Below are positions 42,285 through 63,886 of a stretch of 64,000 nt of DNA, piece by piece. This DNA is from Antedon bifida. Its lineage: Eukaryota > Echinodermata > Crinoidea > Comatulida > Antedonidae. How positions within the stretch are numbered: the stretch's first letter is position 1; each line of letters begins with the position of its first letter. The DNA is taken from positions 10,955,820-11,019,819 of the forward strand of contig OY727096.1 in assembly GCA_963402885.1 (NCBI GenBank). The letters run 5' to 3'. The notes under the pieces are model-generated. The model had not been told where the DNA came from and did no database searches. It saw only the letters and a list, made by a program, of their open reading frames with translations. Position numbers and translations under genes: made by a program.

Positions 42285-42323
42285 ATGGAACCAAGTACAT
42301 CTCAATTACAGCCTGAAAATAAG
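42285..42323 (+). CDS. CLP1: CLP1 exon 1 (coding)
   Basis: ATG followed by 12 codons ([13 protein letters not shown]), donor GTAGGC, phase 0. The acidic/polar start is poorly conserved in the family. This ATG is chosen because it follows the acceptor closely and joins in frame to the conserved exon 2. Confidence 0.8.
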
Positions 42324-45300
42324 GTAGGCCTACTGTAGTGTATAGGTGGTAGGCTCTATCAGGTTCGCAAATCTAAAGGATACAAAACAATTGAGTCCTG
42401 TCTCCAGCTACCAGTTACACTACAATATTAGATAATAATAATCAAAATCACCAATGAATTTTGTTTTGCTGCAAACCAAAAATGGGAGATCTATATATTT
42501 TTCAACTCAGTCTAAGTTATGATTGATGATAGTTGTTTGTTTGCCTTCTAAATAGTGCAGTCAGTTGTTATTTACCACAAATAACATTCTTGATAATCTA
42601 GTAGTGAGCAAATTAATAGACGATGAATACATAATTAAACTATTTGTTTTTTATGATTTAATGTTCGGTCAGTTAAAAGTGCTGAACTAAACAAATGTAT
42701 ACTTCTCTAATTTAAAAAAAAATATCAATTATATAAATAAAAACAGTGCACACAAGTTGTGTGTGTTTTATTTCTATTCATTCATAAATGTTTATGTTAT
42801 TCTGCACTAATAATATAGGAATGGCGAGAATTCCGTCTTGAAAAAGATAATGAATTGCGCTTCGAAGTTGAACATGAGGTGCAGATGGAAGTAAGTCATT
42901 AAAATTGACCCATTTAAAACTGTATATGTACACTGGTACTAATTTGTGTGTAGGACAAACACTGTAATATCATTTTTGATTTTTTTTCACCTTCCACATT
43001 TACTCTAATATTTTCATGCTACTCAACTATTGAAATTGTTGCCCCAAAAAAGCATTTTAAATTATTTTATAATAGCCATCCAAAAAATCAATGTTTTTGA
43101 ATAATTGCAACTGTGTAAATGAAATACTAGTGAAATTTAGTGCAGTGCTGTTTATTACATGGGAATATTTAAAATTGACCACACTGGCCTGTTTATACTG
43201 AGAATGTTAAACAATAAATACATGAAATATACATTACATCATCAGCAATAAACATAAGAACATTGTATCGATCATATTGCTTTTATACTGATATGTTCAT
43301 TATATTACTGTATCTTCTTTAAAGACAGTATTACTATTAATGTTTATTCTATAGTTATATGATGTTTATTTTTAAACCAAACTACAGTAGGCTACAAAAT
43401 AATCCATATTCTCTATTATAAAATATTCACAAATTATAATTAATACTTTGTTACTTTTATTAGTTAAAAGAAGGTCTAGCTGAGGTATTTGGTACAGAGC
43501 TTTTACGCAATCACATTTACAAGTTTACTGCAGGGGCCAAAGTAGCTGTGTTCACATGGCATGGATGTTTAATCTATATATCCTTCTTTATTTACAGTTT
43601 TATTAGGAATTTTTATTTGTCTTGCCACGCCTTTAGACAGTTATATTCAAGAGGACGGAAGCATTAGGAAATTGTATCACGTTTTAGCTTATAGTTTACT
43701 AAGGCTGAAAAAATTGGAATTTGTAAACTCAGACCTTGGGCATGTGCAAAGCATGAAACCATAGTCTGTAAGACCTGTTCAATAAACAATTTTTTTTATT
43801 TTGGCTTTATAATACTATCGATTTATCATTTAATAATGGTCAAAACAAGCCTTCATCTGTGGTAAATATTGTTGCCGAATGGTGTGTATAGATAAAGAAT
43901 TGTTTGATTAGTGAGTACATTTGTCGGCAGCTGAGAAATTAGACATTTTGTTTACTGGAATGTCAGGGTGTGGGTCACTATGACCTTAAAGTGGAGCTCC
44001 ACCCAGAAAATTGCTATTTTTCATACATTTCAACTATTCTTTAAAAATATCATCCCTCATACTTCATATTTTTTTGAAAATTTTTTCAATGAGTATGATT
44101 TTCGTGAAAATCACGCCTTTTTGCGTTTTGGGGGGATACCTTGTAATTTCCTATTCTTTTACATGCAAAAGGGGGGTATATTTGAATATTCCTAAAAAAT
44201 TAATTTCTTCACTAAAAAAAAAAAAGGAAAATGTTTTTATATGTAATTTTTTCAGATCTTTTCATTTCTGGTATTGTTATTGCGTATACACTGCGCAATT
44301 TCGTGTAAATAGACACTTTCCCCCGTTGGGTCCAATTGGGTTTTTTACTTTGCTAGGGAGTATGATCACGTGACATTTCTCACGACATTTTTCACACTGC
44401 AGCTGGCGATCTGTTATTGTCGCGATGTTATTTTTGACGGGCGAAAAGTATATTAAAACATTCTGGATGTGACCCTATCATGTTTCACAGTGTAATAAGT
44501 GATTATGAGATTATTACTAAAATGTCAAATTTAACGAGATTTGAGAAAGACGTGGCTATATATTCAATAAAGCTAGGCCTAGGCCTACTAGAGTCTAGGT
44601 ATGTAACGATGCTGCTTGGCCTCCTAGCTGGCTGCCTGATAGCCTTACACTACAGCAGTCCAGTGAAGTTTGTTCTGGAACCCAATCTCGGCCTACCCAT
44701 GGGCCATGATAGGGTGCCTGAATAGTTGCTTTTCAGTCAGACATAAGCTTCTACATCCGTTACTATTCTTTACTATTCTGAGCAATACCAGTCTTGTTTT
44801 GTAGAGAATTTTGTGTTTCACAATTCTTAATGTGCGAGAAAACCCAGGAACGATAAATGGGACGAAACGACCAAGCATTTTCGAACCCATGACTACAGTC
44901 CTACCTAGATATGAATTCAAGCCTAGCTAGCTAGGCTGAGCAGACGATTTAGCTAGGCCTAGCTTAAAATTAATAAGCAATTTGATTAAGATTATTATGC
45001 TGTTGTTGTACAGTGCAAATCATGATGTTACATGTAAATTATGCTGACATTTTTATCGGAAATATTACTTGGGCCTAAACAAATCGTATTAATTGTGTGT
45101 ATAAACAGGGAGTTGTAAAAATTATTTTACAACTCCCTGGTATAAAATTGATTCGCCATTTTCCCAACACATAATTTACCAAAGGGGAGACATTTCACCA
45201 ACGCGTTCACCGGCGACTAAAACGCGTCAGTCGCTAAGTGTATTGTAAACTAATAACCCCTAAGTTACTGAAAAAGTGTAATGTAGTAAAAAACACTATT

Positions 45301-48300
45301 TTCTGACCGATTTTTTAGAAATTAATTTTTGGAAAATATTGCCATATCTTCCCTGTTTTTTGTATGTAATCACTTTCAATTAAACATACTTAAACATAAT
45401 ATAAGCTGAGAAAGTCTGAGTGTAGCTCCACTTTAAGGAGTATGGTTTTGTTCATTTCAGACTATATTTACATTACAAAACGTCTACACTAGTGATTGTT
45501 AAACAAAAATAATTAAAAAAGAATCATTATTTATTATTATAAAATAGAATATCAATACAAAAATAGCATCATTTAATGAAAAAAGGAAAAAAAAGAACTA
45601 ATATTTCTTGTTTATTTAAAATCTTTATGCCAATAGAAAATGAATCACTGTTGTATCAGATAAGTGGTAATTCTCCAGACACAGGGATTTTTTTCGTAAC
45701 CCCTCCTCAGCTTGAATGATGAACGATGTTATTTAAAGTGCACGGCTGTGTACAGTACACTGGACCTACAGTTTATAATGCTTACATGAGAAGACTTGTT
45801 TAACCACCAAACCCATGCCGATATTGTAGGCTCTTTAGGTATAGTAAACGGTGCCCCTTTCCTTAACTGCTCAACCATTTGACTCGCTCGAATGAGAAAT
45901 ATTTTTTTGTATATTAATTTACTTGTTTATTACTTATATTCTATGACACAATCTATGACACTACTATTTGCAGAAGTACATTTTATTTATTTATGGCCTA
46001 TATCTCATGATGATTTGTTTTAAAGCTATTCTTCCCTCAATGTAATTATTAGGGAGGAATTATTATCTAACAGAGACATAAATAACATTTTATCAGAATA
46101 TTACATTGTTTAACCCTTAACCTCAATGCACCTACGAGGACAAACAGAGGCTGCTTATGTATCTAGAGACACACCAATGTTGATGTACCTCAACACTCAT
46201 GCTGCATTAGAACAGATGAGAAACCAAGCAGAGATGGATGGAACCAGAGGGCCTAGAGTAAGTTAGGTGCATTTATGGAGGTCTATTATGTTAACCTTCT
46301 AACCTGCTGCTAAAAGTATAATCTGTTTAATTTAAAGAATAATTGTTGAAGTTTCCTTTTATAAGGTAATAATTCCAAACAATGTATACAGTACTTGCAT
46401 TATATAATATGAAAAAAAGGTGTTCATCAAATAAAGGTGAAAAGGCACAAAAGAGGACAAGACGCAAGAGATGACAAAAGTCATGCAAATTTATTTTTTT
46501 GTATAACAATTGTTTTTCTTTTGTTGTATTTGATGGATCAACATAGTTTTTTTTTTTACATCTATCTACATGTTTGTCTGTTAGAATTCAATCAACCTTA
46601 TTAATAATACTCGTGATTGATTTATTTTATTACACATAGGTTATGGTAGTTGGGCCTCAGGATGTTGGTAAGAGTACAGTTTGTAAGCTGTTACTGAACT
46701 ACGCCATCAGAGTTGGTAGACAACCAACTTATGTAGAGCTAGATGTTGGACAGGTCAGTGGAACAATAGTTCTCATTTTGTTTTATATATTGTAACGTTT
46801 TATCTGCCTTGTTGAGTGGGTTCGGCATCGGTGTTATTCCTAAGACGATAATAAATACAGATGATTCACAGAAACACACACTACGATCTGCTAATGGTTC
46901 GATGACCTTTAATTATCCTTTAAACTTATTTATTTATCGTTCCATTGTTCGCGAAAACAAGCTTAGCTATTCTAAAGCTGAACTACTATCGCTACGTTAT
47001 CAAACTACAAACCAAAATCAATACTCGGATATTATTATAAACAAGATTATAGCATTCAACAATTCAGTTCTATTAAAGAAGAAATGGTTTCGCCGTCGCC
47101 GAGGAAAACGAGGAGGGAAGAACAGTAGGAGGCCACCCAGTTGTGATGTTTACACATATAATCTTCAAAACTCATGCCCCGTTATTATTGGAAATAGACC
47201 GTTCAATCAAACAAGCCGAATTCAAATGATCAATTTGGACTACACAAATACCGGTATTCACTTTGAACATTTAAGGTATCTTTCGCGTTCTATTACGGAT
47301 TACACCCGAGATCCACATCTGTCTTTCGCTACAGTGAATACGCAGTCCATCCGCAACAAGATTGGTGAATTTATACATCACATCACAATAAACGATTACG
47401 ATATCTGTACGGTCACTGAGACGTGGTTATTGGAGAATGATGATGCACACAGGGCAGACCTCAACACATGTGGCTATACATTCCTTGATAAACATCGCAT
47501 AGACAGACGCGGAGGAGGAACAGGAATTATATTCAAGGATTGTCTAAATGTCAATCAACTTAATTCAGGCGCAAAATCGTCTTTTGAATTTTCCGAATGG
47601 AATTTCGTGGACACAACCCTACACACCACTTTCGTTGTCATCTATCGCCCGCCTTACTCCACCGTCAGACCCATTAGTACTGCCACCTTCTATGATGAAT
47701 TCGCAGAATATGCTTCGGATATTCTATCGTTACATAGTTCTGTAATATTTTCGGGTGACTTCAACATTCATATGAACAGCAGCAATGACCCGGATAAAAT
47801 AAAATTCGACGATGTACTTGAGTGTTTAAATCTTGATCAACACGTGTCTCTCCCAACACATCGTTCGGGAAATACTCTTGATTTGCTAATAACGAGGGGT
47901 AAGGACACTCTTTGTGTAACCGAGCCCGCTTCAAATTATTACATCAGTGACCATTGTTTTGTAGAGACTATTTTATCGAGACCAAAACCGAAATGTTACC
48001 GTCAAAAGAAAAAGTTTCGAAAGATAAATAAAATAGATCACACGAACTTTGATGAAGCTTTGTCTCAAGTAGTTATATCATCAATGAATATCGATGATAT
48101 CGATGAATTGGCAAATCACTACAACACTAAACTACTTGCTGCTCTGGATAAGCATGCTCCTATTGTTGAGAAAACTACCACTGTCAGAAGATCGTTACCT
48201 TGGTTTGATGACGAGGCTAATGTGTTGAAGAAGCAACTTCGTCGTGCTGAGAAGACCTTACGGAAGTCTGCCACCGACGAAAATAGGTCAGCTTACAATG

Positions 48301-51300
48301 ATCTACGCAATTCATACAAACGTTATCTTCGTTTAGCCAAGTACAAATTCATTAATGGTGCTATCAAAGAAGCTGGCAACAACTCAAAAAAGCTTTACAA
48401 GATCGTGTTTGAGCTCATTGGTAGACGTAAAAATAACCCACTTCCACCACATGAAACTGATAAACAGTTAGCAGACGACTTCATATCTTTCTTTATGGGC
48501 AAAATAGAGAAAATACGAGAGGAATTGGAACACTTCCCTTTGTATGAACAAGAACGGCTAATGGCAAATGAATTTATTGCATTTCAGGAAGTTAGCGAAG
48601 ATGATGTTAGGAAGTTGATCATATGCGCAAAACCAACAACCTGCTCCACTGACCCCCTACCGTCGACACTGGTGAAACAGCATCTGGTTACACTTCTACC
48701 ACTTATTACAAGGATGATCAACAACTCGTTGTGTAACGGCGTATTTGCTCATAGATGGAAAATATCAGTTATAAAACCGCTTATAAAAAAGAAGGGTGTT
48801 GAATGTATCCTCAGGAATTATAGGCCAGTAAGCAATCTGTCCTTCGTATCTAAGCTGGTTGAACGCGCATGCTTGAACCAATTCATAGCTTATGTTGAGA
48901 ACAATACCTTATTACCGGCGTACCAATCTGCCTATCGGAAAGGTTTTAGCACAGAGACGGCTTTGGTTAAGTTAACCAATGACGTACTCTGGAATATGGA
49001 GTTGCAAAGGGTGACTGCGCTGGTATGTATAGACTTGTCAGCCGCCTTCGACACAGTGGACCACGAAGTACTCCTCAACGTTTTGCATAACAAATTCGGA
49101 GTGGCCAATGCGGCATTGAACTGGTTTGATACTTACCTTCGTCCTCGATTTGCCAACGTAACAATCGGCGAAACTAACTCGGAGACAGCCAATTTGTCCT
49201 TCTCTGTACCTCAGGGTAGTATATGCGGTCCAGTTCTATACACCATATATGCCAGCACTTTACAAGATCACATCAGTAAGTTTGATATTTCTGTGATGGG
49301 ATATGCCGATGATCACTCAGTGTATGATTCATTTAATCCAAATTCTAGTTCTAGTATGGTAAATACAATCACCAAATTACAAGAGTGCCTCATATCCATC
49401 AACGACTGGATGAAGTCCAACAGACTAAAAATGAACAGTGAAAAAACAGAGTTCATACTATTGGGAAGCAGAGCTCAACTCCTGAAATGCGAGAAAGATC
49501 ATATCATCGTATGTCAGGACAGAATACCACGTGGTTCATCTGTAAAATACCTTGGTGTTAATATCGACGACCAGCTATCTTTCAAGAACCATATACGCGA
49601 TAAATGCAGAACGATAGCTGTTAATTTATACTATATTCGTCAAATTCGCAAATTTCTCTCCAAGGACCTTTGCCAACAACTAGTTCAATCGCTCGTGCTG
49701 TCACATATTGATTACGCCAATGCATTGTATTATGGTCTACCTGCTAATACCCTTGCTCCAATGAAGAGGTTACTGCACCAAGCTGCGAAAATAATTGTCA
49801 GGAAAGGTCGGTATGACAGTGCAACTAACGCCATGCGATCCTTGCACTGGCTTCCGATGTCTCATAGATGTCAATTCAAAATAGCGTGTCTTGTATGGCG
49901 TTCGCTTAAAGGTTCCGCTCCAAGTTACCTGAGAGATATTCTTACTGTGCGGAATGTTTCTCGCAGTACTCGTTCAAGCACCAGCAATTATAACCTGACA
50001 ATCCCACGAACTAAACGAAAGACATTTGCTGACCGTTCGTTCGCCGTAGCAGGACCCAAAATTTGGAACAGTTTACCAAGTCACATTAAACACTTAGACG
50101 ACTATAATCAGTTTAAAAAACATTTAAAAGCACTATATTTCAAACAATGTTACGATACTAATTGATGTGAAGCGCCGCTGATTATAATTAAATGTTGTAT
50201 AAATGTGCGCTATACAAGTAATAATAATAATAAACTTAAACAATACAATACACAATAATAACTAGAAAGCCACTCCAAGAGTGCATACCTCTGCCTACTG
50301 TAAAATTCTCCTACATAAGATTTCTCTGGGGAAAAATATATATATATTTGTGTGTGTCTTAATGCTGTGTGTGATTTAATTTCACTACATACAAGCATGT
50401 GTATGCGAATTTTGTTTAATGGTTATGTAACCAGCCTTTCAACTAACAATAGATTCTGTTGACTAACAATAAAACAGCAACGGCAAAAACAAACGGGTGA
50501 ATTTGAAAAGAAATAGGTTTTTGAAAACTACTCGTATCAAAAAACCTGTAAATTAAATCAATTTATGTTTTAAAATTACAAATCACAAATTATAACTCTT
50601 GCCTCTTGTACAAAAATGAAGTTTTTTGGACAAGTAGTTCTCGAGAAAATGGAATTTCAGTTTACTTGTTATTTTAAGACTGCTCACCGGCTTTTGAAGA
50701 TTCTGTCCTATCTTTTAACACTAGCAGGTCTGAAAATTATACTAAAAATTGGTCCAGAATTGGGACCATGGTCCAGATTGCCTCCAAAATATAATGGAGT
50801 GGTCGTTGACCACATATCTATCTGTATTTTGGTAAAGATCTTGTAATTACTTGTCTATTTCGTGCCTAGCTTACCTGGATAAACCAACAATAGCCCCTTC
50901 TCCTCGAAGAGTGAGATATAACTCGAAAAGTAGAAGTTTTCATTAAATTCCCCTCTCCACAAATGGTATAGTCCATGAACTATGCCCTCAAGTGGGAGCC
51001 TGCCCACAAACCACCATCATCATTTCTTTTCGAGACATGAAAGAGTAAACATGTCTTCAAAGAGCTTGCACAGTTTTCTTGCTGTTGCAATAGAGTTTTT
51101 GATACTGAGACTGCTGCTATATGAAGCTAAGTAGTTTTTCTTGGTTACAGAGATTCATTGAACTTTGAAATGTCAATAAAATGACTTTTAGCAAGCATTT
51201 TTGTGAATGTTTTCACTTAGGCCAACTGGCTGAAATGTTTGCAGTACCATAGTGGCCAGGCCTAAATCTAGCAGGACAGCTTGTCTACTGCCTAGCATAG

Positions 51301-54300
51301 TGGTTTAGGCTTATTGTAGGCTGGCCTCCTGAGTTTCTTAAATTTATTAATGCTCTCATAGGGGGCCTAGGCCTAGATCTTGCAGGGTCAGATGTTGCCC
51401 ATGCATGTTGCCTAACAATAACATTGTGGCTAGACATAATTTTGTAAGGCCTAGCTGGAACTTAGTCTATATATGAGGCCTAGGCCTACATACTGCAGGA
51501 TCAAAGATCTTGTCTATGCTTCTTTCCTGACTGGTCTGGTTTTCTAGCTGAGTCATAGTTGACATTTTGGACACGGTCCGTATATTCGGATCAGCTGTTG
51601 TTTTCAGTGCAGCTACAATGCACCTCCAATCATGACTGCACCCGCTGCGGCCTCTGCGGTCCCGGGGGTGAATGAGTTTTCTCCGGTGTTACTGCAAGCC
51701 ATCGTTGCAGCAGTGAGAGCTTGCCGAGGGATGAGCCCAACGCACCCTCTCACATGAGACCTCCTCCCCCAGTTTCATATATCGATATATAGGCCCACAG
51801 CAAACCTCGTTTTTACGATGGTCCGTCTATCCGGCAAGAGATGACAGTGATAGGACGATGGTCTCGCTCTCCAAGAATAAGTATGGGAGAACGAGACGGG
51901 CCTGGGGAGGAAGGTCTGCAGGCATTCATGAAACGGACGGCGGTACTGTCCTTTATTTTCTTGCCGTTGAATTCATAAACCTAACGGTTCATTCGGCCCT
52001 GCAGGTAGGATGGAGACAGCCTCATCTATCCTGTTGGGGCTAAGACTGGGCTGCCACAATAGACCGAAAGACGCTAAAGAGTGCTTTCACATGCCTATTG
52101 CAGATCAGGATCATGTGCTTCCGAAACCATGATCACTTCTACCAATTCGTCGCTGCTGTTTGGCCTCTCAACGGCCCTGCGTGTGTGACACGCCTGGTAC
52201 GAACGCCGGTAGCGTTCTTCCACCAACACAGCATTCAAATATTTATGTACTTAGATGATTGGTTATCGTGGCCCAGTCCAGGGACTAGCTGTTAAACAGC
52301 CTAGCATTTGTCTGCCTCGTAACGGAACAAGCAGGATTCCTTATAAACGAGGCAAAATCATGTCTTCTGCCTATACAGAATCCTCGTTTAATATCTCGGA
52401 GCTCAAATTAATTAGGTAACGGGCCGTGTGTGCCCATCCATATGAGCGAGTGGCCAAGGCAAGATATGCAGTGCTACATCTCGCGCTCATGCTCCGACGG
52501 GGTACGACTGGCTACGCACATTAAAGTCACTGGCCAGCTTCGTCGCCCTCGTTCCGTGCTGCCGGCTCAGGATGTGACCATAACAATTGCACCTCCCGGC
52601 AGCTTTCCGCCAAAGACAGTATCGCGATCGCCGGCTCCCCTGCTGCTCCTTTGCAGATGCAGCTACCCCCTCCACCACCGGCACAGCCTATGCAAAGAAA
52701 CGAGGCTTCTACAGGGTTCGTACGCGTCCTTAAATTCCTTGAATGTCATGGAAAAATAAATCTCTTTTTTCAAGTACTGGAAAGTCCTTGAAATTGGAAT
52801 TTGTCCTTAAATGTCCTGAAAATTGTTAAAATACAATAAAGTTATATGAATTCTTTTTAATAAAGTTTTGAAAACACTGAACAATAAAAGTAATAAGTAT
52901 GAAAGTACATGGAAGATAACAACGTTTGTACGTGCCGACTTTTCCGCCGCCGATAAATGCTCGTACATGAAATAGGCTTTCTTATCAGGTTGGTTGTTGA
53001 CTGTAGAACGCCACTGGCCAGTGATGTTCAGATGACAATCACCTTGAAAAAACTTCGCCCAACTATTGTTTTGTTCCCCCACAGTACATTATTGCATAAT
53101 AGCTATTACTATTGAAATAAATACTTGGCCCTTTTTGTGTTCCGATTAATTTAACGAATGTATTATTGCAAACACGCATAGCATTTTAGCATTACACTTT
53201 AATTAGTGACTATACTCGCATTCTATTTATAGCCTCTGAGAGGCTATAAATAGAATGTGAGTATAGTGACCTCTCTCAGCGAGGCTCTCTCACACCGCAA
53301 GCGCGTATATTAGCGGTCTCTATATGGCTGCCGTTGAGTTTTTTATCGTGCTTTTCTCGTCAGTGGAAATCTATCCAACATGCCGCGTACATGCTTTTTT
53401 CAAGAGTCCTGGCTTTTTGATAGCAAATTTTCCCCGTGGATTAACCGTGCGTCAATAAAAACGGAGGCAAAGTGTAAACTATGTAGAAAAACATTCGATA
53501 TCTCCAACATGGGACGGTCGGCGTTAATATCTCATCAAAACGGAAAAAAGCATAAACAACAAATGGAGTTGAGGTTTAACAATACGACGCAAGAAGTTAA
53601 TCAATTTTTTAGTAAGTCCAACCCAACAACATCCACCAGTAAATCTAATACTACCATCACCAGTATTATTGAACAACAAGACATGCCAGGAACTAGTGTT
53701 GATAATAGTATACCGAAACGTACGAACCCGAGTGGCCCGGCGACGATGCAGTATTTCAGTAGTAGTGAGGAGATTCGTAAAGCAGAAATATTGTGGGCCT
53801 TATTCATGACTAACCGGCACTATTCGAACAAGTCGATGGATGAAATAAATGAAGTATTCCAGGCGATGTTTCCAGATAGTGGAATAGCTGCAAAATTTAG
53901 TTGTGAAAAAAAGTCTGCTTATGTTGTTAATTATGGGTTAGCGCCATATTTTAGGTAAGTTTTGTTTGATATCGATTGATATAGGCCTACAATTTATATT
54001 AAATAAATAATTGTAATAGGCATTTCTGTATTGAGTAATAGCCTGGTGAGTATGAAAAACAAATGTTTTTAGTCTAAGTTTTGTTCATTTTAGGTCATTA
54101 CTTCTGAAACGTGTTACGGATGAGTCAGATTACGTCCTACTATTTGATGAAAGTCTAAACAAAGGTACACAACTAAAGCAAATGGATATCCATGTCCGAT
54201 TTTGGGCCGACAACCACGTGGAAACTAGATTCTTTGATAGTACATTCATGGGCCATGCTACTGCTGAGAAAGTCGTCACCGATTTTAAGATATGTGCAGA

Positions 54301-57300
54301 CAAACTGAATCTCGCAAAATTACTTCAAATCGGTATGGATGGTCCAAACGTCAATTGGAAGTTTTATAAACTTCTCTCTGCCGATATAAAGACGAATTAC
54401 AATACATCAGTTCTCAACATTGGGTCGTGTGGCCTTCATGTAATGCACAATGGGTTTCAAAGTGGTGTGCAGTCAATTGATTGGAAGGTCTACGACATAC
54501 TGTCCAGTTTACATATACTGTTCAAAGACACCCCTGCTCGTCGGGAAGATTTTGAGAACGCTACTGGCACACATGTGTTTGGCCTTAAGTTTTGTAAACA
54601 CAGATGGGTGGAGAATGCTGCAGTTGCGAAGCGGTTTCTCAGTGTTTTTCCGCACCTTAAAACGTACATCAAGCAGGTGACCGAAAAGAAAATAAATGAC
54701 CCAAAAACAAAGTCGTATGACACTCTGAAGGCTGCTTCAGTAGACTTATTTACGGTGCCCAGAATGCACTTTTTTGTGATGGTTGCCACACAAATGGAAA
54801 CGTTTCTTAAAAAATATCAAACAGATCAACCAATGATACCGTTTCTTGAGAAAGATCTAGTGGCATGTTTGAGAGGGCTATTGAGATTGGTCATTAAACC
54901 AGACGTCCTTTCCGGGCTCGTGAATGGCCAAAGTTTTACTAATTTTAATATAGATGAAACGAAAAACCATTTACTTGCTAACAAAGTAGACTGTGGAATG
55001 TTAGCTTCAGAGCATATAAAGGAGTTGATCAAGAAAAAGAAGGTGTCAGAGTTACAAGAACTCGCGTTTAAAAATGAGTGCAAGACCATGGTTCTTACAA
55101 TTGTTAAGAAAGTGCTATCTAAATGCCCACTTGGTTTCAGAATCGTTCAAAAAGCGAAATTTCTCGATCCAAGAAATTTTTGTTTAAGTGGTAATGCGCG
55201 ATCCCTTAATGTTGGTAGACTAAAGGCTGTATTAAAAATATTAGCAGACAACCAAAAAATCAACCATGACATGTGTGATGAAATTGTTAACCAGGCAAAC
55301 GAATTCTATGATTTTGTTGTGTTAAATAATTTATCAGATTTCACTGAATACGATCCTAAATGTAGAATTGACGAATTTTACTATGACCGCCTTAGCAAAA
55401 CCACTAAGTATCACGCATTCTGGGGGGTAGTAAAATTGATTCTAATGCTTTCCCATGGCCAGGCGACTGTTGAGAGAGGTTTTAGTGTAAACAAGGTGGT
55501 AGCGGCTGTCAATATGTCAGAGAGTACATATGTTTCGAAGCGCGTTGTATGCGGTCACATAGCTTCAGTTGGTGGTGTTTTGTCTGTAAAGATAACGCCC
55601 CAATTAATTACTTCTGTGAGTGGGGCTAGACAACGCTATAATCTCCATCTTGATAATGAAAAACGTAAAGCGGCAGAATCTTCAAAGGCTATTAAGAGAA
55701 AATCGACGATCGATGAGTTAGATAACTTAAAGGAAGCCAAAAAAAGATGTATTGCAGATATTACGGGTTTAGAAAAATCGTCTGCAAAGTTTTCCGATCA
55801 AGCTGAAAGTAAAGGTAGTCTTACTCTCATTGCCAAAGCTAATAGCTTGCGTAGAACCGCTTCAGAAAAAAAAGAGCAATTAGCTCAACTTGAGGAAGAC
55901 ATTAGACATAAATTAGAGGAAATCAGAAATAGCTAGGCTATTGTGTTTGATAAAATTAGCAGAAATTGCTAAGTTGTAAAAAAAAAGCAATGTAAAAATC
56001 TCATGTGTTTATGATCGTTTTGAATAAAGTTCAGAGTGAATTAGAATATGGTTTGATTTATTTTATTTATACCTTCTAAAAAAACATACAGTATACAGAA
56101 ACGGCATTTAAACTCCGAATTCCGAACGAATTGTAGAACGTTATCCTATAGTAGTATCAAATTACCAAATATCGTCGACAGTGCAGTGACTATGGAAACA
56201 TCAGCCTTTGTTCAATACGCGCTGTGACTACCCTTGATAGGCGCGGAAGTCTGGCGCGGTTCCACAAAGGCTTTACCAGGGAGTTGTTACAACTCTTTAC
56301 GCTTTACTACCGTTACGTGTCATTTTACTCGATTTCCCACGCCTATGTTTTCAGTACTGTATGTTTTTTTAGTGGCTACAGTTAGTACTTGAATTTCTGA
56401 AAAACATCGTAACTACGAATTCATTTTTTTTATTAATCTGTTGAACTTAATATTTAGGTATATGTCCTTGAAATTTTAAAATGTTGACATTGAATGTCCT
56501 TGAAATGTCCTGGAATTTTACTAGCTCACAGGTGTACGAACCCTGCTTCTACTTCTAGACAAGCTTTACATAATCCCCGTCATGGAAATAGTGGCGAGAG
56601 AGGCGCTCACCACAGAGGTGGTCGACGCCACAACAATGTGAAGTGCCGGTGACGGTTTGGGGGCGCCCGTCCCTCCGAGCGAGGGCGGGCAGGTGGGAGG
56701 GGTCGTCTGAGATGGTTTTGTGCAGGTATGGTAGGCCATGACAAAGGATAAGTAAGTCTCTACTATTAGCGCTCGGGTATCGCATATCATTTCGAGCCCC
56801 TATGAGAGGTGGTGCCCGACATACGAGGTTCCGCCCGAGCCGATTAACAGACAGGCGCTCATGGCCGGCCTCAACGCACTTCTCCAAAAGGAGCTGTGGT
56901 GCAAGTTCACATTCAATATGCGATCCCGGGACACAAGTCCACCATCTCTTGCCAGAAAAGAAATCTGGCAATTGGCACCCCCCTTTAAGTCTGAACAAAC
57001 GGTTCATTCGGCCCTGCAGGTAGGATGTAGACAGCCTTCATCTATCCTGTTGGGGCTAAGACGAGGCGACTGGGCTGCCACAATAGATCGAAAGACGCTA
57101 AAGAGTGCTTTCACATGCCTATTGCAGGTCAGGATCATGTGCTTCCGAAACCATGATCACTTCTACCAATTCGTCGCTCTGCTGTTCGGCCTCTAAACGG
57201 CCCTGCGTGTGTGACACGCCTGGTACAAACGCTGGCAGCGTTCTTCCACCAACACGGCAGTCAAACATTTATGTACTTAGACGATTGGTTATCGTGGCCC

Positions 57301-60300
57301 AGTCCGGGGACCAGCTGTTAAACAGCCTAGCATTTTTCCGCCTCGTAACGGAACAAGCAGGATTCCAATATGCAGCTACAATGCACCCGCTGCAGCCTCT
57401 GCGGTCCCGGGGTAAATGAGATTTCTCCGGTGTTACTGCAAGCCATCGTTGCAGCAGTGAGAGCTTGCCGAGGGATGAGCCCAACGCACCCTCTCACATG
57501 AGACCTCCTCCCCCAGTTCATATATCGATATATAGGCCCACAGCAAACCTCGTTTTACGATGGTCTCGCTCTCCAAGAATAAGTATGGGAGAATGAGACG
57601 GGCCTGGGGAGGAAGGTCTGCAGGCGTAAATGAAGCAACATCTTGTCTTCTGCCTACACAGAATCCTCTTTATATCGGAGCTCAAATCAATTTGGTAACG
57701 GGCCATGCGTGCCCATCCATATGAGCGAGTGGCCAAGGCAAGATATGCAGTGCTACATCTCATGCTCAAGCTCCGACGGGGTACGACTGGCTACGCACAT
57801 AGAGTCACTGTCTAGCTTTGTCGCCCTCGTTCCGTGCTGCCGACGCAGGATGCGACCATTATAATTGCACCTCCCGGCAGCTTACCGTCCAAAATCAGAC
57901 TCACTTCACAAAGTGGTTGTAACGAATGCGTTCATTCTCACGCATCTGGTAGCTTGCGGAAGGCTGGTTGCTTGTGGGCAGACCCATTCCTGGGCTCGCA
58001 CTGGCCGATCGCCAAGTCGCCATGGGCGAAAACGTTTCCAGATTGGCGAAAAATAAAACGGCTACTTTAGCCATTTTGGCTATGACATATGATAAAATAG
58101 ATAATAAAATAATCATTTTGGCGAAAGCATAAAGTCCAACTAAAAGGTCCATTTGTCGATCTTCAAGCATTTATTTTGTTCGTTATCATACTTCAAGCTC
58201 CATTTTCGTCAACTTGTTTCGTTGTACCAGGCGTCTCTTTGTTATTTCAATATGATGGAGATAGCAGAGGTAGACTGCACAGAGAGACAGACGTTACACG
58301 ACACATGGATGATGGAGTCTACCCAAACTATCACGTGTTGCGCTGCACAAACGAACGACGACTCGACAGTCGACGGTCGGGTATTTACCGGGATTGTCTA
58401 TGTTTCGATAAGGGTGTTCTTTTCAGATTAAAAAAAAACATAGTATCTTCAATGAATGATCTTATCGAAATCAATATTTATGCGTTATGCATTTTAGGCT
58501 CCAATAATTTAGTTTTATATTTTACCCTTAATAAAGTTTCCTCGTGCGTGCAGTGCGTCAGTAGAGTAAACAAAACAACATTCAGGAAATGGTAGAGTCT
58601 AACGAGGATTTAGCTAAACACACACGTGCATTTATTGCGGACTATATATACAGCAAGGCCGGCCGCCGGCTTCTGTGTTGTTGGGTAATAAATAATCGAG
58701 CCGGGATGGTATAAATTTCTCCCCCGACAGAAACGCCTTTTCCCTGTGCTTTGGCCTATATTTTCTGCACGTTCAACAACGATACGAGTGTTGGTATGCT
58801 AGAAATATTTTTAGCATATAGGCCTACGACGTACCGTCGTACATAATTTTGTAGGCCTAGGCCCCTAGCCTAGGCCTGCGCTACTGCACTTTCGCACCTC
58901 TTGAGCATACCCAATTTAAAAACATTCACCCGCTGCGCGGCGGTGACGGTGGGTGACCGTGAAAGTCTTAGGACACGATTTTCGCGTGGTACGGAAGCCA
59001 CCAGCCAAGCGTAAAAAACAAAAATAACATAGCGTTCAGGGGATTTCAGAAAACTGTAAAATGTTTCTTATTAAATTGATAACTGCATGAATGCTGTATG
59101 ATTAAAAACAATTTGAACAATTGTTTTGATCATATAAAATACAACAACAATTATTTTTTAAAATCAAATATACAGTGATTTAGGCATGGCTCTCTTTCCC
59201 CAAATGCCTTACAAAAACGTTCAGGGGGAACAGTGTATAGACCTATTGACATAGATAAATTAACTAAAACGTTTTTACCATTATATTTCAACAATTTTTA
59301 ATTTTGGCTAATGACCGATTCATTTGGCTAAATAAAAAAATTGAACTTTAGCCATTTTGGCTATAGATAAACTGATTTGACTAAAAAAAATATTTGAACT
59401 TTCGCCAAATGGCTAAACAAAATGAAATGTTAGTACTACCCCAGCATTCAGGGGTCAGAACCGGACTTCCGTTTTTAAACGGATGCGTCCGAAGTAGGTT
59501 GGGCGGCTACGCACTGTCAGTGGAAGTCGCTTCTCCGGCATCTGATCATGCAAGGAGACATGCCCACATCAACCGTTTTGAACTGGGCAGTTGAGCATGG
59601 AAGCTCTCCTACCCCATCTGGCAAATCGCCATGTTGTCGCTAATTCCATCAATACAACTGTGGTTGCTCACATAAACAGCAGGCATGTGGTAGCCAACAT
59701 TGTGATGCCACACATGGACGTTACTAATGTGTTGCACAGACCACAACGTAGACCTCAGTGGCCCAAGTTGCGGGCCGACTGAATGTGGAAGCGGACACTC
59801 TGTCCCAACCCACATCTACATCCTACGGAATAGCGTTCCTTCCGCCGATTGCCACCCAAATTTCAACCACTTTGGGCGGCCCCACATAGATCTGTTTGCG
59901 ACGTCAGGCAACACGCATCTTCCGCACTGTAGTCAAGATGAACATGCGTGGGCAGTGGATGCCTGTCCATACCGTGGGACGGTTTTGGGCTCATGCATTT
60001 CCACCAATTTCGATACTGCCGTTGGTCCTGACGCACATTCAACGCCATTAATGCCGAGTACTTCTGATAGAGCCATTGCCCACAACAGACTTGGGTTTTT
60101 CTGCTCATCAGCCTGCTTTACGATCAGCCTCTACATCTCCAGATTCAGGGAGACCTGCTGACGCAGGACTGAACTTTGCCGAATCCCCGATCCCTCGACC
60201 TGATTGTATAATCACTGTCAGGGATCAGCTCAGAGTCTCGGACTTTCCAAATGACGAGATCCCGACAGGAACCCTACTCGCCGTCTATAATAGCCAACTA

Positions 60301-63300
60301 AAACACTGTTTTAAATGGTGCAAGCGCCAATAGACTGACCCTATGAAAGAGATCTAGGTAAAGTCTGCGCCTTCCTGCATTATCTGTTTGAGTCAGACCT
60401 GCAGGTCCGCACCGTGTCTGGCTACCGGTCTGCCTTGGGTGCTGTAATTCCGACCTTTTAAGACAGCTTGAGCATACCTACATCTCCTGCAGTTTCAGGT
60501 TGCTTTGCGAGATGTTTAGAGATCGGCCTCATGTTAAGGCCCTAGTTCCTGTTGGGACGTCAGTATCGTACTAGCCGTTCTGATACATCAGTCAGATGCC
60601 TTTCGACAAGGCCCATTACAATTCTCACCTTTTGGCATTCTTATTGGCAATGAGAAGAAACAACATATGAATGCTGAGGCGTGTTGCACACTCCTCAGAT
60701 CTGGTTAGTTTTGAATGTGGCTAGTATTGATGCTTGACGGCTCGCAGATTGCTGACTGTGTTTATCATTCCCAAATCTACTTATCTTTTGGGTGATATAA
60801 TACATATATATACTTGTCTCCAGTGAGGGCAGTTAAGTTACAATCCACTGCACTGCCAGAAGGAGTGTCTCAATATCACTGCCTCGGTGCCCCGCACCAG
60901 TCAAGCGCAAATTCAACTGAAAATTTCGTTATGTGCTTTATCAGACACTCCACCACCGGTTCACATGCATCACTTGTGTGTGATTGCATACGTGTTGTAT
61001 ACTGGTGGTACCAGCAAGCTGGTGTACACAGTCAGTTTTCTCTCCCACCTACCGAATATCTCCACAAACCTTGCACCAGTAGCCACAGCAGAGCTGAAAG
61101 TAATGGATACACAAAGCTCTTTTTAAACTTGTCTCCCACCGCCGACTAGTATCTAGTCCGGTGCTACACTGGCTATTGTTGGTTTATCCAGGTAAGCTAG
61201 GCACGAAATAGACTACACAAACCAACAGTGGTGTTGGTAGTCTATGAGTCCCCTCAGACAAGAGGTCTTGCGAAATGATGATGGTGGTTTGTGGGCAGGC
61301 TCCCACTTGAGGGCATAGTTCATGGACTATACCATTTGTGGAGAGGGGAATTCAATGAAAACTTCTACTTTTCGAGTTATATCTCACTCTTCGAGGAGAA
61401 GGGGCTATTGTTGGTTTATCCAGGTAAGCGGCACTCATAGACTACCAACACCACTGTTGGTTTGTGTATTTGAGTACAGTAATCATAGAGATATTCATAG
61501 AGGTTCACTATAATATCTCTATGGAGTAATCCTGCTAACAAACAAACAAACAGACAAACGTGATCGACTACATATACATCCTTGGTGGAGGTAAACAATG
61601 TATTACCTAAGATTCAATAGAGGTGTTTTAGCTAATGCAGTCAGTAATAATAATATAGGTCTTTAATCTTTGGAGATTGATTGACTACCATGTGGTTTCT
61701 CCTGTCTATATGTTACCCATATCTACCCACCTATCAGCCATCTCATAAGAGGATTGTTCCATAAATAAAGAAAGGGGTGTCAAAGTCTTGCATATGGGTA
61801 TCAGATTTCACTACAATATCAATTGATTGATTTTCCTAAACACATTTTTATCTTTCTCACATCTAGGGAACTCTGTCAGTGCCTGGTACAGTGGGAGCAC
61901 TTCTTGTAGAACGACCAGCAGATGTTGAAGAAGGCTTACCACTAAATGCACCATTAGTATATCACTTTGGAGTCACTACGCCAGGGGCTAACCTCAAACT
62001 TTACAACTTGCTCACATCACAGATTGCAGATATTTTGAACACACGCTGCAAACTCAATCCTTTAGGTAGGCATACTTGTGAAGTTACTATTATATATCCT
62101 GTACACTAATAATGTATTAGTACATCAAACAACCATCAGTACACAATATTGAATCTGTACTCTTTGTCAATTGACTGCAAAAGTGAGAGATTTGTGTATG
62201 ATCATGTGTTCATAGTAGTGCCATAAATTGCATTTCCAAACAATGATTATTTTGATTATTAACAAATACTAGTAGTCATGAAGATTCTATCGTACATAGT
62301 ACAGTACTTAAAATCTAAGCCAACAGGCTTCGGGTTACTTATTGCTAATGTTAATTTTATTTACACCAAATACTAAAAATAAAAAGATTACTGGATGTTT
62401 TTGTTTTGTTTTACATAGCTTCTACAAGTGGCTGTGTTATCAATACATGTGGTTGGGTCAAAGGTGATGGATATAAATGCATCACTCATGCAGCACAAGC
62501 ATTTGAAGGTAATGAACAATAGTTCAAATTAAATCTTACAAGTTGTAGTGTTATCCCAGGTTTCTGAATGTTCACAGTACTGTAACATTTTGAACCTCTA
62601 TCCATGACACTCTCCTTAAATTTATAAGCCCAGAAACCTCTAGTCTCTTAGTCCAACACTAACTATATTTAAAATCAGGTAATATAATAATTGTTATTAT
62701 GTTATTTATAATTAAAACATTCTTATTTTAGTTGATGTAATTGTTGTACTTGATCAAGAAAGATTATACAATGAATTAGTTAGAGACATGCCATCTTTTG
62801 TAAAGGTGGTGCTTCAGCCTAAATCAGGAGGGGTAAGTAAGTAAAATGGAAATGAGAAAATGAGTGCAATATGACTCATGTTAAAAACTGTAGTAACCAC
62901 TTTCTAAAAATATTTTATTTATCCTCTTAAATCCTCTTATTTTTAAATAATAAAAACACCCAAGAAATGTTAATATAAACCTTAATGAATTATTGAAATA
63001 AAACCATTTTATATACCTGTTTCACATCTGCATACATTGTTACAACTTGTATGTAACAAGGTTTGATCTCTTGACGTTTTCACACACGCATACGCGAACC
63101 ATGTGAAATCTTGTTGCGCTGTGAAAAGTGAAGTGAAGAGGTGAATCATCTGCATAAAAAAGTTAAATTTAAATTTTCAGTAATGAACTTAATATTCGAA
63201 TGCTCTTGATTGATAAATCCAAATAATATACAGGTAATTGTATAATATTAATTTGACGGAATTCAGAATCTCTTTTTGATTGCTGATTGCTGAATAAATA

Positions 63301-63886
63301 AATACATTTATTTGTATACAATTAATTTGTATTGTATTGCAGACTGTGGACAGATCACAAACATTCCGTAGAACAACTAGGGATGACCGAGTGAGGGAAT
63401 ACTTCTATGGATTCAGAAATTGTTTTTATCCTCATTCTTTTGATGTGGATTTCGGTTCAGTTGAAATATATAAGATAGGAGGTATGGAATTGTTTATACT
63501 AAATAGTGTTGCCTTAAAGTCTTAAAATAAGGAAATTGAAAAGTGCATACTTTTGTGATTTGCTTTCGTTGTGGTGTTTGTTTTGTTTTTTATAGAGTCA
63601 ATTCGCCCCAAAAACTGGATGCTGTTGTGGTAGCTAAAAATTGTCTGACTGACAATCTGTTTACAATCTCCAGACAGTTTGGTTTCAGTCTGGAGAATTG
63701 ACTGTACTGCCATACGGTTTAAATAAATGCACATTTAAATAATGCAAGTTTTTGAGGACATTTCATTCTCTAAAACTACATGGGTAATTCGGTTTATTCT
63801 TCTAGCACCAGCTGTACCAAACTCTTGTCTTCCAATTGGTATGACGCCAGAAGACAACCAGACAAAACTTGTACCAGTCCAGCCAA
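42285..63886 (+). CDS. CLP1: CLP1 polynucleotide 5'-kinase / cleavage factor subunit, 10 exons, 3' end missing
   Basis: CLP1 is a nuclear RNA 5'-hydroxyl kinase. It is a subunit of mRNA 3'-end cleavage factor II and a partner of the tRNA splicing endonuclease. Coding exons: 42285-42323, 42819-42890, 43464-43577, 46132-46257, 46640-46753, 61867-62065, 62419-62508, 62732-62832, 63343-63481 and 63806-63886. All join in frame without a stop to about 355-360 residues; the family usually has about 425, so the C-terminal exon or exons lie beyond the window. Family landmarks, in order: [21 protein letters not shown], the P-loop GPQDVGKST with [61 protein letters not shown] and [17 protein letters not shown]. 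Nine introns are seen. Eight are GT-AG; intron 3 is AT-AC with U12-type signals. Intron 5 is 15 kb and loaded with transposons. Confidence 0.95.
42819..42890 (+). CDS. CLP1: CLP1 exon 2
   Basis: 24 codons, [18 protein letters not shown] and on, acceptor AATATAG, donor GTAAGT, phase 0. It matches the FELERETELRFEVE region at the start of the CLP1 N-terminal domain. Confidence 0.92.
43464..43577 (+). CDS. CLP1: CLP1 exon 3
   Basis: 38 codons from [13 protein letters not shown] to FTWHGCLIY. The acceptor is TTATTAG. The 3' boundary is set by the U12-type donor ATATCCTTC at 43578, which leaves phase 0. Any GT choice near the end truncates or breaks the family pattern WHGCSVQLSG. Confidence 0.9.
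43578..43586 (+). other. CLP1: U12-type AT-AC intron 5' splice site
   Basis: ATATCCTTC directly after exon 3. It matches the minor-spliceosome 5' consensus ATATCCTT at all eight positions. The codon before it is TAT, phase 0. Confidence 0.85.
43990..45432. mobile_element. TTAA-target DNA transposon (Kolobok/piggyBac type) inside the U12 intron
   Basis: AGTGGAGCTCCACCCAG at the left and the inverse of the right end (AGTGGAGCTACACTCAG) match at 15 of 17 positions. Both sides are flanked by TTAA (43986-43989 and 45433-45436). It makes up more than half of CLP1 intron 3. No transposase is found; the open frames at 44011-44373 and 44480-44725 show no motif. A 15-bp perfect hairpin lies at 45106-45139. 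Confidence 0.75.
45106..45139. repeat. Perfect 15-bp hairpin
   Basis: CAGGGAGTTGTAAAA, loop ATTA, then TTTTACAACTCCCTG. It may be the remains of an extremely short foldback insertion or an RNA hairpin. A related GGGAGTTGTTACAACTC word occurs at 56280-56296. Confidence 0.6.
46114..46131 (+). other. CLP1: U12-type branch site and AC acceptor
   Basis: CCCTTAAC (46114-46121) fits the U12 branch consensus TCCTTAAC at seven of eight positions. The likely branch A at 46120 is 11 bases before the terminal AC (46130-46131), within the usual short U12 spacing. No AG lies between this branch site and the first conserved codon of exon 4. Confidence 0.82.
46132..46257 (+). CDS. CLP1: CLP1 exon 4
   Basis: 42 codons beginning [20 protein letters not shown] and ending DGTRGPR, donor GTAAGT, phase 0. 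It matches LSGRTEVAYVS...LYLNTHTALEQMR. The start follows from the AT-AC intron. Confidence 0.92.
46640..46753 (+). CDS. CLP1: CLP1 exon 5 (P-loop)
   Basis: 38 codons, [20 protein letters not shown] through ELDVGQ, acceptor CACATAG, donor GTCAGT, phase 0. It carries the Walker A motif GPQDVGKST that binds ATP and the start of the LDVGQG loop. Confidence 0.97.
46800..50232 (+). mobile_element. CR1/L2-type LINE insertion
   Basis: The element includes the ORF and a short 3'UTR ending GCGCTATACAAGTAATAATA with a triplet tail at about 50216-50232. The left boundary is not defined by a target repeat and is placed just before the open frame; the insertion is probably 5'-truncated or lacks ORF1. Its tail resembles those at 37941-38200 and 41112-41240. 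Confidence 0.75.
46809..50165 (+). CDS. LINE ORF: endonuclease / reverse transcriptase (CR1-L2 type)
   Basis: Uninterrupted frame of 1118 codons; the first ATG is at 46902 (codon 32). Around residues 171-390 lies an apurinic-type endonuclease with [32 protein letters not shown] and SDHCFVE. Around 650-930 lies the reverse transcriptase with [46 protein letters not shown] (about 742), [13 protein letters not shown] and the catalytic YADD (832-835). The C-terminal part ([34 protein letters not shown]) is typical of CR1/L2-type elements. It is nested sense-oriented in CLP1 intron 5. With no stop or frameshift it may be recently active. A separate ORF1 was not identified, and the true 5' end is uncertain. 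Confidence 0.92.
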   Translation: MLSGFGIGVIPKTIINTDDSQKHTLRSANGSMTFNYPLNLFIYRSIVRENKLSYSKAELLSLRYQTTNQNQYSDIIINKIIAFNNSVLLKKKWFRRRRGKRGGKNSRRPPSCDVYTYNLQNSCPVIIGNRPFNQTSRIQMINLDYTNTGIHFEHLRYLSRSITDYTRDPHLSFATVNTQSIRNKIGEFIHHITINDYDICTVTETWLLENDDAHRADLNTCGYTFLDKHRIDRRGGGTGIIFKDCLNVNQLNSGAKSSFEFSEWNFVDTTLHTTFVVIYRPPYSTVRPISTATFYDEFAEYASDILSLHSSVIFSGDFNIHMNSSNDPDKIKFDDVLECLNLDQHVSLPTHRSGNTLDLLITRGKDTLCVTEPASNYYISDHCFVETILSRPKPKCYRQKKKFRKINKIDHTNFDEALSQVVISSMNIDDIDELANHYNTKLLAALDKHAPIVEKTTTVRRSLPWFDDEANVLKKQLRRAEKTLRKSATDENRSAYNDLRNSYKRYLRLAKYKFINGAIKEAGNNSKKLYKIVFELIGRRKNNPLPPHETDKQLADDFISFFMGKIEKIREELEHFPLYEQERLMANEFIAFQEVSEDDVRKLIICAKPTTCSTDPLPSTLVKQHLVTLLPLITRMINNSLCNGVFAHRWKISVIKPLIKKKGVECILRNYRPVSNLSFVSKLVERACLNQFIAYVENNTLLPAYQSAYRKGFSTETALVKLTNDVLWNMELQRVTALVCIDLSAAFDTVDHEVLLNVLHNKFGVANAALNWFDTYLRPRFANVTIGETNSETANLSFSVPQGSICGPVLYTIYASTLQDHISKFDISVMGYADDHSVYDSFNPNSSSSMVNTITKLQECLISINDWMKSNRLKMNSEKTEFILLGSRAQLLKCEKDHIIVCQDRIPRGSSVKYLGVNIDDQLSFKNHIRDKCRTIAVNLYYIRQIRKFLSKDLCQQLVQSLVLSHIDYANALYYGLPANTLAPMKRLLHQAAKIIVRKGRYDSATNAMRSLHWLPMSHRCQFKIACLVWRSLKGSAPSYLRDILTVRNVSRSTRSSTSNYNLTIPRTKRKTFADRSFAVAGPKIWNSLPSHIKHLDDYNQFKKHLKALYFKQCYDTN
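50233..50852. other. Intronic spacer between LINE and DIRS
   Basis: AT-rich CLP1 intron 5 sequence. No gene or repeat recognised. Confidence 0.45.
50867..51027 (+). repeat. DIRS left inverted terminal repeat
   Basis: AGCTTACCTGGATAAACCAA through CCACCATCATCATTTC. It is the inverse of 61277-61435 with at most a few differences (for example ATTAAATTC against ATTGAATTC). Confidence 0.85.
51600..52712 (+). pseudogene. DIRS gag-like and truncated RT fragment, copy 1
   Basis: Order of blocks: a proline/cysteine-poor gag-like block (51610-51940), an RT block with [14 protein letters not shown]...FMYLDDWL (YLDD at 52248-52259), and a later block (CPSI...[12 protein letters not shown]). Multiple frameshifts and stops. 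The RT block has lost its 5' half compared with the copy at 56860-57370. The frame then passes into [16 protein letters not shown], which continues after the hAT as [11 protein letters not shown]. Confidence 0.7.
53380..53954 (+). CDS. hAT transposase exon 1 (BED-like zinc finger)
   Basis: 191 codons plus two bases from a true ATG ([11 protein letters not shown]). It carries C-x2-C and H-x5-H spaced as in BED-type fingers used for terminal-repeat binding, then a Ser/Thr/Asn-rich linker, then [20 protein letters not shown], typical of the region before the catalytic domain. Confidence 0.88.
53380..55936 (+). CDS. hAT transposase, two exons, apparently intact
   Basis: Exon 1 is 53380-53954 and exon 2 is 54094-55936. 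The donor AG|GTAAGT and the acceptor TTTTAG join AG to G in frame and give about 805 residues. The N-terminus has a BED-like zinc finger, C32-x2-C35-x16-H52-x5-H58. LLFDES, around residues 203-208, holds a plausible first catalytic Asp. Near residues 620-655 [20 protein letters not shown] and FSVNK form the hAT C-terminal dimerisation signature. The last 90 residues are charged and predicted coiled coil ([27 protein letters not shown]). No stop or frameshift was seen, so this may be functional. If intron removal failed, translation would stop soon after exon 1 (frame ends 53958). Confidence 0.9.
54094..55936 (+). CDS. hAT transposase exon 2 (catalytic and dimerisation)
   Basis: Starts by completing the split codon, then [20 protein letters not shown] and MDIHVRFW, and runs to the TAG at 55936. 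It contains the catalytic region, RVVCGHI and the [11 protein letters not shown] dimerisation block. An ATG at 54182 could be misread as the gene start, but the 29 codons before it are open and join exon 1 in frame. Confidence 0.9.
56023..56028 (+). promoter_or_regulatory. Polyadenylation signal of the hAT transposase
   Basis: AATAAA 87 bases after the transposase stop codon. Confidence 0.5.
56545..57989 (+). pseudogene. DIRS gag end and RT, copy 2
   Basis: Resumes the frame broken by the hAT. The frame at 56861-57196 reads [73 protein letters not shown] and [13 protein letters not shown], the DIRS RT core. YLDD follows at 57274-57285. A block duplicated from 51610-51940 then interrupts (57365-57630), followed by the downstream RT block (57640-57890). 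Frameshifts are frequent. Confidence 0.75.
57990..59444. mobile_element. Unclassified insertion in the DIRS, possible 5-bp TSD
   Basis: DIRS coding similarity stops before and resumes after this interval. CATTC lies on both sides (57985-57989 and 59445-59449). The ends share only CTGGG/CCCAG. TTTAGCCATTTTGGCTAT occurs near both ends (58066 and 59349). The interior has no recognised protein. Assignment as a transposon is inference. Confidence 0.45.
59445..61160 (+). pseudogene. DIRS RNase H / recombinase remnant
   Basis: Frames with [20 protein letters not shown] and HINRFEL, then NVEADTLS-like and [20 protein letters not shown], match the RNase H and following region of DIRS elements. They also carry RVSDFPND and [10 protein letters not shown], as seen at the start of the tyrosine recombinase. 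Many stops and frameshifts. No intact R-H-R-Y set is visible. Confidence 0.65.
61173..61249 (+). repeat. DIRS internal complementary region
   Basis: 61173-61213 is the inverse of 50853-50893, and 61214-61249 is the inverse of 61433-61468. The two termini are thus juxtaposed in antisense, as expected for the DIRS circular-intermediate mechanism. Confidence 0.85.
61277..61435 (+). repeat. DIRS right inverted terminal repeat
   Basis: Inverse of 50867-51027: GAAATGATGATGGTGGTTTG to CAGGTAAGC. Confidence 0.85.
61469..61866. other. End of CLP1 intron 5
   Basis: Host intron sequence between the DIRS right end and the acceptor of exon 6. Nothing else recognised. Confidence 0.45.
61867..62065 (+). 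CDS. CLP1: CLP1 exon 6
   Basis: [20 protein letters not shown] onwards to ...NTRCKLNPL, 66 codons plus one base. Acceptor CATCTAG, donor GTAGGC. It continues directly from exon 5 across the 15-kb intron. Confidence 0.96.
62419..62508 (+). CDS. CLP1: CLP1 exon 7
   Basis: Encodes [20 protein letters not shown] and then a conserved AAQAFE. Acceptor TTACATAG, donor GTAATG, phase 1 on both sides. It matches [16 protein letters not shown] of the kinase core. Confidence 0.96.
62732..62832 (+). CDS. CLP1: CLP1 exon 8
   Basis: [16 protein letters not shown] through LQPKSGG, 34 codons including the split first codon. Acceptor TTTTAG, donor GTAAGT, leaving phase 0. Confidence 0.96.
63343..63481 (+). 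CDS. CLP1: CLP1 exon 9
   Basis: [20 protein letters not shown] then [13 protein letters not shown] and VEIYKIG. Acceptor ATTGCAG, donor GTATGG, leaving one base of the next codon. Confidence 0.96.
63595..63704. mobile_element. pogo-like MITE in CLP1 intron 9
   Basis: GAGTCAATTCGCC at the left and the inverse of the right end (CAGTCAATTCTCCAGACTGA) are flanked by TA. The internal inverted pair CTCCAGAC/GTCTGGAG suggests repeated foldback. It is related to the element at 24224-24370. Confidence 0.5.
63806..63886 (+). CDS. CLP1: CLP1 exon 10
   Basis: Encodes [20 protein letters not shown] and KLVPVQP. Acceptor TTCTAG, donor GTAAGT after one base of the next codon. It matches [21 protein letters not shown]. 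The following exon or exons are outside the window. Confidence 0.95.

Follow-up and report, generated by a model that had tools for sequence, protein, structure and literature searches.

A probable U12-type AT-AC intron in the CLP1 gene of the crinoid Antedon bifida

Introduction

How is the reading frame of CLP1 carried across the 2,554 nucleotides (nt) that separate its third and fourth coding exons in the crinoid Antedon bifida, when that interval begins with AT and ends with AC? The gene occupies part of a 64,000-nt stretch of genomic DNA (assembly GCA_963402885.1, contig OY727096.1, positions 10,955,820 to 11,019,819 of the forward strand; ‘the window’, from whose first letter positions are counted below). 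CLP1 is an RNA 5'-kinase and a part of cleavage factor II. The latter is composed of CLP1 and PCF11 (PMC11817330). The features described here indicate that the interval 43578-46131 (‘intron 3’) is very probably a spliceosomal intron of the U12-type AT-AC class, lying in phase 0 in the part of an animal CLP1 gene that encodes the N-terminal beta-sandwich domain.

Borders and splice signals of intron 3

The elements on which this assignment is built are the following:

43578..46131, + strand: intron 3, AT-AC, 2,554 nt, phase 0 (gene model, border enumeration, motif scan)
43578..43586, + strand: U12-type 5' splice site ATATCCTTC (8/8 match to ATATCCTT)
46114..46121, + strand: branch-point motif CCCTTAAC (complementary to GTAAGG of the genome's U12)
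46130..46131, + strand: terminal AC acceptor (sequence, gene model)

Exon 3 finishes with ATCTAT at 43577 and the intron opens with ATATCCTTCT at 43578; at its other end it closes with CCCTTAACCTCAATGCAC at 46131, and exon 4 begins with CTACGA at 46132. The U12-type donor consensus is (A/G)TATCCTT and the corresponding branch-point consensus is close to TTCCTTRAC; the donor and the branch motif of intron 3 agree with both. The two candidate branch adenosines, at 46119 and 46120, stand 12 and 11 nt before the last base of the intron, a spacing that falls within the 11-13 nt optimum reported for the distance from branch point to 3' splice site in minor introns (PMC3584512). An earlier note on this DNA had drawn the intron with exactly these coordinates, with minor-spliceosome consensus signals at donor and branch point and with the branch motif 11 bases before the terminal AC, and in these respects it was right (donor 8/8, branch motif CCCTTAAC, branch adenosine 11-12 nt from the intron end); its reading of the intron as U12-type AT-AC is likewise borne out by the donor, branch motif, spacing, termini, protein join, small nuclear RNA (snRNA) genes and PDCD7 matches.

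The + strand of the window has a single copy of the octamer ATATCCTT, at the end of exon 3, and the - strand has none. Because about 1.7 copies would be expected on the + strand under a first-order Markov model, the octamer itself is not rare, and its location is what tells. Under the same model, ATATCCTT, CCTTAAC and a terminal AC would coincide by chance, correctly spaced and in any one of 20 gap-free registers, with a probability of about 3e-8; the motifs were picked after the site was known, though they belong to the known consensus. Ten of the eleven introns of CLP1 are GT-AG and only intron 3 is AT-AC; measured against CAG/GTAAGT, the intron 3 donor matches at 3 of 9 positions and the ten GT-AG donors at 6-8 of 9, and against ATATCCTT the corresponding figures are 8 of 8 and 1-4 of 8.

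The CLP1 gene model and the protein join

When the gene was rebuilt from the window together with the next 1 kb of the contig (L009), twelve coding exons were obtained that encode 426 amino acids (aa) without an internal stop, the last two exons sitting just past the window end. The joined protein aligns to the PDB chain 8hmy_E (presumably human Clp1) over query residues 10-426 with an E value of 8.7e-202, and to 4ohv_A (presumably C. elegans clpf-1) with an E value of 3.8e-127; across the intron 3 junction both alignments are gap-free, and those to 4c0b_A and 4oi4_A (both taken to be yeast) show small gaps nearby. The junction falls between query residues 75 and 76, or residues 94 and 95 of 8hmy_E, which would be human residues 74 and 75 provided that 8hmy_E has 20 additional residues at its N-terminus. 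Human CLP1 isoform 2 is said to lack residues 75-138, and the assignment makes no use of this. Pfam domains appear on the joined protein in the order CLP1_N (5.1e-33), CLP1_P (1.5e-69) and Clp1 (2.2e-35), and the CLP1_N match, residues 20-108, crosses the junction.

42285..42323, + strand: CLP1 coding exon 1 (gene model; no match in genome protein search)
42819..42890, + strand: CLP1 coding exon 2 (gene model, genome protein match)
43464..43577, + strand: CLP1 coding exon 3, ends WHGCLIY (gene model, PDB-chain alignment, genome protein match)
46132..46257, + strand: CLP1 coding exon 4 (gene model, PDB-chain alignment, genome protein match)
46640..46753, + strand: CLP1 coding exon 5, P-loop GPQDVGKST (gene model, Pfam, genome protein match)
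61867..62065, + strand: CLP1 coding exon 6 (gene model, genome protein match)
62419..62508, + strand: CLP1 coding exon 7 (gene model, genome protein match)
62732..62832, + strand: CLP1 coding exon 8 (gene model, genome protein match)
63343..63481, + strand: CLP1 coding exon 9 (gene model, genome protein match)
63806..63886, + strand: CLP1 coding exon 10 (gene model, genome protein match)
L009:251-344 and L009:743-854: CLP1 coding exons 11 and 12, stop included (gene model, genome protein match)

A search of the animal's own genome with this protein, confined to the best candidates with E values of at most 0.01, returned eleven matches. All eleven fall at this locus, on exons 2-12; the first exon was probably too short to be matched. 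At that sensitivity no second or processed CLP1 copy was found, and thus no intronless copy able to bypass intron 3. No CLP1 relatives were found among viral contigs.

Minor-spliceosome components and a likely splicing route

Genes for all four minor-specific snRNAs score above their Rfam cut-offs in the same genome:

C9:26008012: U6atac (E 1.5e-33)
C13:3031731: U12 (E 2.2e-24)
C10:10010369 and C13:13162309: U11, two loci (E 1.0e-14 and 4.9e-14)
C15:6907062: U4atac (E 1.8e-15)

To these can be added two matches to PDCD7 (presumably U11-59K), about 2.3 kb apart on C15 and above the Pfam cut-off, with E values of 3.6e-7 and 8.6e-6. The genome's U12 keeps GAGTAAGG, which is complementary to CCTTAAC apart from a single unmatched A; in the RNA, the stretch ATGAGTAAGG offers a GUAAGG able to pair with CCUUAAC while one A stays unpaired. 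The best predicted duplex between U12 and the branch region has an energy of -8.1 kcal/mol, equalled or bettered at 2.6% of 4,000 random sites.

Two of these snRNA loci have features of their own. The U11 genes, on different contigs (L012 and L013), differ in stem-loop sequence and have AAAAAGGGC near the 5' end in common. The U6atac gene (L010:1501-1625; C9:26008012-26008136) is nested between exons of SF3B6 (branch-site protein p14), on the opposite strand; the joined SF3B6 pieces match 2f9d_A with an E value of 1.5e-59.

Established minor-spliceosome biochemistry supplies the likely steps through which intron 3 would leave the transcript. The U11/U12 di-small nuclear ribonucleoprotein (di-snRNP) would bind ATATCCTT and CCCTTAAC together; U4atac/U6atac.U5 would then join, with U6atac taking the place of U11 at the donor; the branch adenosine at 46119 or 46120 would attack A43578; and the AC at 46131 would act as the 3' splice site, so that WHGCLIY is joined to exon 4. 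Joint recognition of donor and branch point by the U11/U12 di-snRNP has been described (PMC3584512).

Alternative borders and alternative classes

The borders of the intron were also enumerated without regard to class, by combining every donor position in 43520-43667 with every acceptor position in 46000-46209 and scoring the resulting joins against pieces of 8hmy_E and 4ohv_A. The 31,080 pairs scanned include 4,602 that are stop-free and in frame. The 15 best pairs are gap-free slides over about 17 bases with scores of 297-304, among which the AT-AC choice scores 299; since such slides score alike, the protein fixes the length that is removed and not the exact borders, and it is the U12 motifs that fix the borders. 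Six slides score above the AT-AC choice (300-304) and were set aside, their termini belonging to no known splice class. Thus, the ‘exact fit’ to the protein family that the earlier note had seen in the join holds for its equal length and its gap-free alignment to two CLP1 chains, and not for its rank, six slides standing higher. The best scores for other termini were 280 (GT-AG), 259 (GC-AG), 276 (AT-AG), 287 (GT-AC), 291 (AT-AA) and 288 (AT-AT).

Could an ordinary U2-type GT-AG intron bridge the frame instead? The statement in the earlier note that no GT-AG pair can do so went too far, because ten of the stop-free pairs in the scanned range are GT-AG. The best of them, 43597-46138, would nevertheless add four residues that are absent from 8hmy_E and 4ohv_A and replace LRG, for a score of 280 against 299; its donor, ACA/GTTTTA, matches CAG/GTAAGT at the GT only, and the U12 motifs would become a coincidence (about 3e-8), all of which makes such an intron exceedingly improbable. 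An ordinary AG acceptor cannot lie immediately ahead of exon 4, because each of the six AG dinucleotides between 46000 and exon 4 puts the same in-frame TAA ahead of that exon; such an acceptor would need a place either within exon 4 or, with another exon in between, far upstream. A further exon within 43578-46131, dividing the interval into two introns, would have ample room in 2,554 nt, and the branch-like motif found further upstream, together with its AC acceptor ending at 45875, could be enlisted for it; the genome search with the CLP1 protein cannot reveal such an exon, since it is absent from the query. Against it, exons 3 and 4 already join without a gap to 8hmy_E and 4ohv_A, and as the AG dinucleotides in 46000-46131 all lead into the in-frame TAA, the AC at 46131 would be needed as acceptor all the same; an additional exon is accordingly considered very improbable. 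The AT and AC ends might instead be handled by the major spliceosome, as in a U2-type AT-AC intron, given that the termini by themselves do not settle to which class an AT-AC intron belongs (PMC3584512); the donor and branch motifs that do define it, however, match the U12 consensus, and the distance from branch to acceptor is U12-like, leaving this reading with next to no credence.

Several observations nonetheless weigh against the assignment of intron 3 to the U12-type AT-AC class, in addition to the ten stop-free GT-AG pairs. A U12-type intron is expected to have no distinct polypyrimidine tract, and the pyrimidine content of intron 3 at positions -20 to -3 is 61%, inside the 56-89% range of the ten GT-AG introns of the same gene and thus no mark of distinction from them. 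Its phase is the less common one, phase 0 being a minority phase that accounts on average for 22% of minor introns (PMC10639083, which also puts the AT-AC share of human minor introns at about 26%). The second branch-like motif, TTCCTTAAC at 45859-45867, is followed by an AC whose last base, 45875, stands 9 nt away from the second A of the motif, and this AC, about 250 nt upstream of the acceptor, could be a decoy or a competing minor acceptor. On the side of the machinery, the most favourable duplex predicted with U12 has a bulge of two bases (A and C) and not the textbook single A; the duplex between U6atac and the donor does not stand out by its energy, 17% of 4,000 random sites being as good; and the absence of matches to each of the four snRNAs from all 14 control genomes is a weak control, the composition of which is unstated. 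Removal of intron 3 by the minor spliceosome in cells is inferred from the DNA sequence. A crude genome-wide count of the pattern gave no excess (350+295 against 396+398 in a reversed control) and is uninformative on introns.

Likely slow splicing, possible retention and feedback

The removal of minor introns has been reported to be slowed three- to fivefold in vitro and twofold or more during transcription (PMC3584512), and for this reason intron 3 is likely to be among the last introns to leave the CLP1 transcript; by the same analogy, its splicing would be slower than that of its neighbours and would limit CLP1 output. Translation that reads past the unspliced donor meets an in-frame stop at 43665-43667, so that a transcript retaining intron 3 would encode a truncated protein without the P-loop domain. 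Beyond this stop, an AATAAA at 43781 is followed by a U-rich stretch.

These elements allow one to picture intron 3 as a sensor, in which cleavage and polyadenylation after the AATAAA at 43781, carried out with cleavage factor II as long as the slow intron has yet to be spliced, would let CLP1 limit its own mRNA. This is a very unlikely proposal; if it were true, how much mRNA 3'-end and tRNA processing takes place in this lineage would be controlled by the minor spliceosome. PCF11 is said to be similarly regulated through an intron with a poly(A) site. The closest likeness is with intron 3 of CstF-77, a weakly spliced intron in the gene of a 3'-end-processing factor that is reported to regulate itself through its own poly(A) site (PMC3708835). 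In contrast to that system, poly(A) signals are not enriched in CLP1 intron 3, where AATAAA is rarer than in the window at large (2 copies against 4.9 expected from the window).

Transposon-like sequences in introns 3 and 5

43984..45438: transposon-like insert inside intron 3, 1,455 nt (24-nt inverted repeats, 92% complementary)

This segment looks like a transposon insertion, similar in size to a non-autonomous DNA transposon, and would explain most of the length of intron 3. Within the window, the inverted-repeat end was found in its own two copies only, and 15 of 100 shuffled sequences contained as many at up to 3 mismatches; as the pattern was itself taken from those copies, the scan lends the transposon reading no independent support.

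Intron 5 of CLP1, at 15,113 nt, contains several transposon-like frames. At 46770-50165 there is a LINE-like (long interspersed nuclear element) open frame; its 1,131 aa include an endonuclease domain and a reverse transcriptase domain. Two long frames at 53338-55936 (206 and 626 aa) resemble, by eye, a transposase of the hAT type or similar, and the repeat around them seems to have parts in common with the sequence near 51600-52700 and 56540-57900.

Comparison with known systems

The literature was searched for a link between CLP1 and minor introns, and nothing relevant was found; intron databases and supplements lay outside that search, so that intron 3 is not claimed to be ‘unreported’. In their available parts, PMC11817330 handles CLP1 and U12-type introns separately, PMC7367187 does not mention CLP1, and PMC9201487 does not give the exon structure. 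Minor introns have been reported to be enriched in RNA-processing genes, although the strength of that enrichment is disputed (PMC10639083), and a minor intron in CLP1, with the dependence on the minor spliceosome that the earlier note inferred for this gene, would therefore be no surprise.

Mouse Clp1 belongs to the same protein family, and 8hmy_E runs through the junction without a gap. The mouse gene is described as having three exons, the second of which contains codon 139 (PMC8488643); it must therefore be without most of the introns of crinoid CLP1, and intron 3 may have been lost from mammalian Clp1.

When compared with the U12-type AT-AC introns of animals, intron 3 is alike in its termini, in ATATCCTT and CCTTAAC, in the 11-12 nt spacing and in the four snRNA genes that accompany it, and no difference in kind was seen. 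It is thus a convincing new case of a class of introns already known, if a fairly ordinary one: a clear minor AT-AC intron, with matching snRNA genes, in a gene for mRNA 3'-end and tRNA processing. For annotation the consequence is practical, in that an annotator restricted to GT-AG introns would break the CLP1 gene or insert false residues, and for comparative work the exact position of the junction lets the class of this intron be compared across animals.

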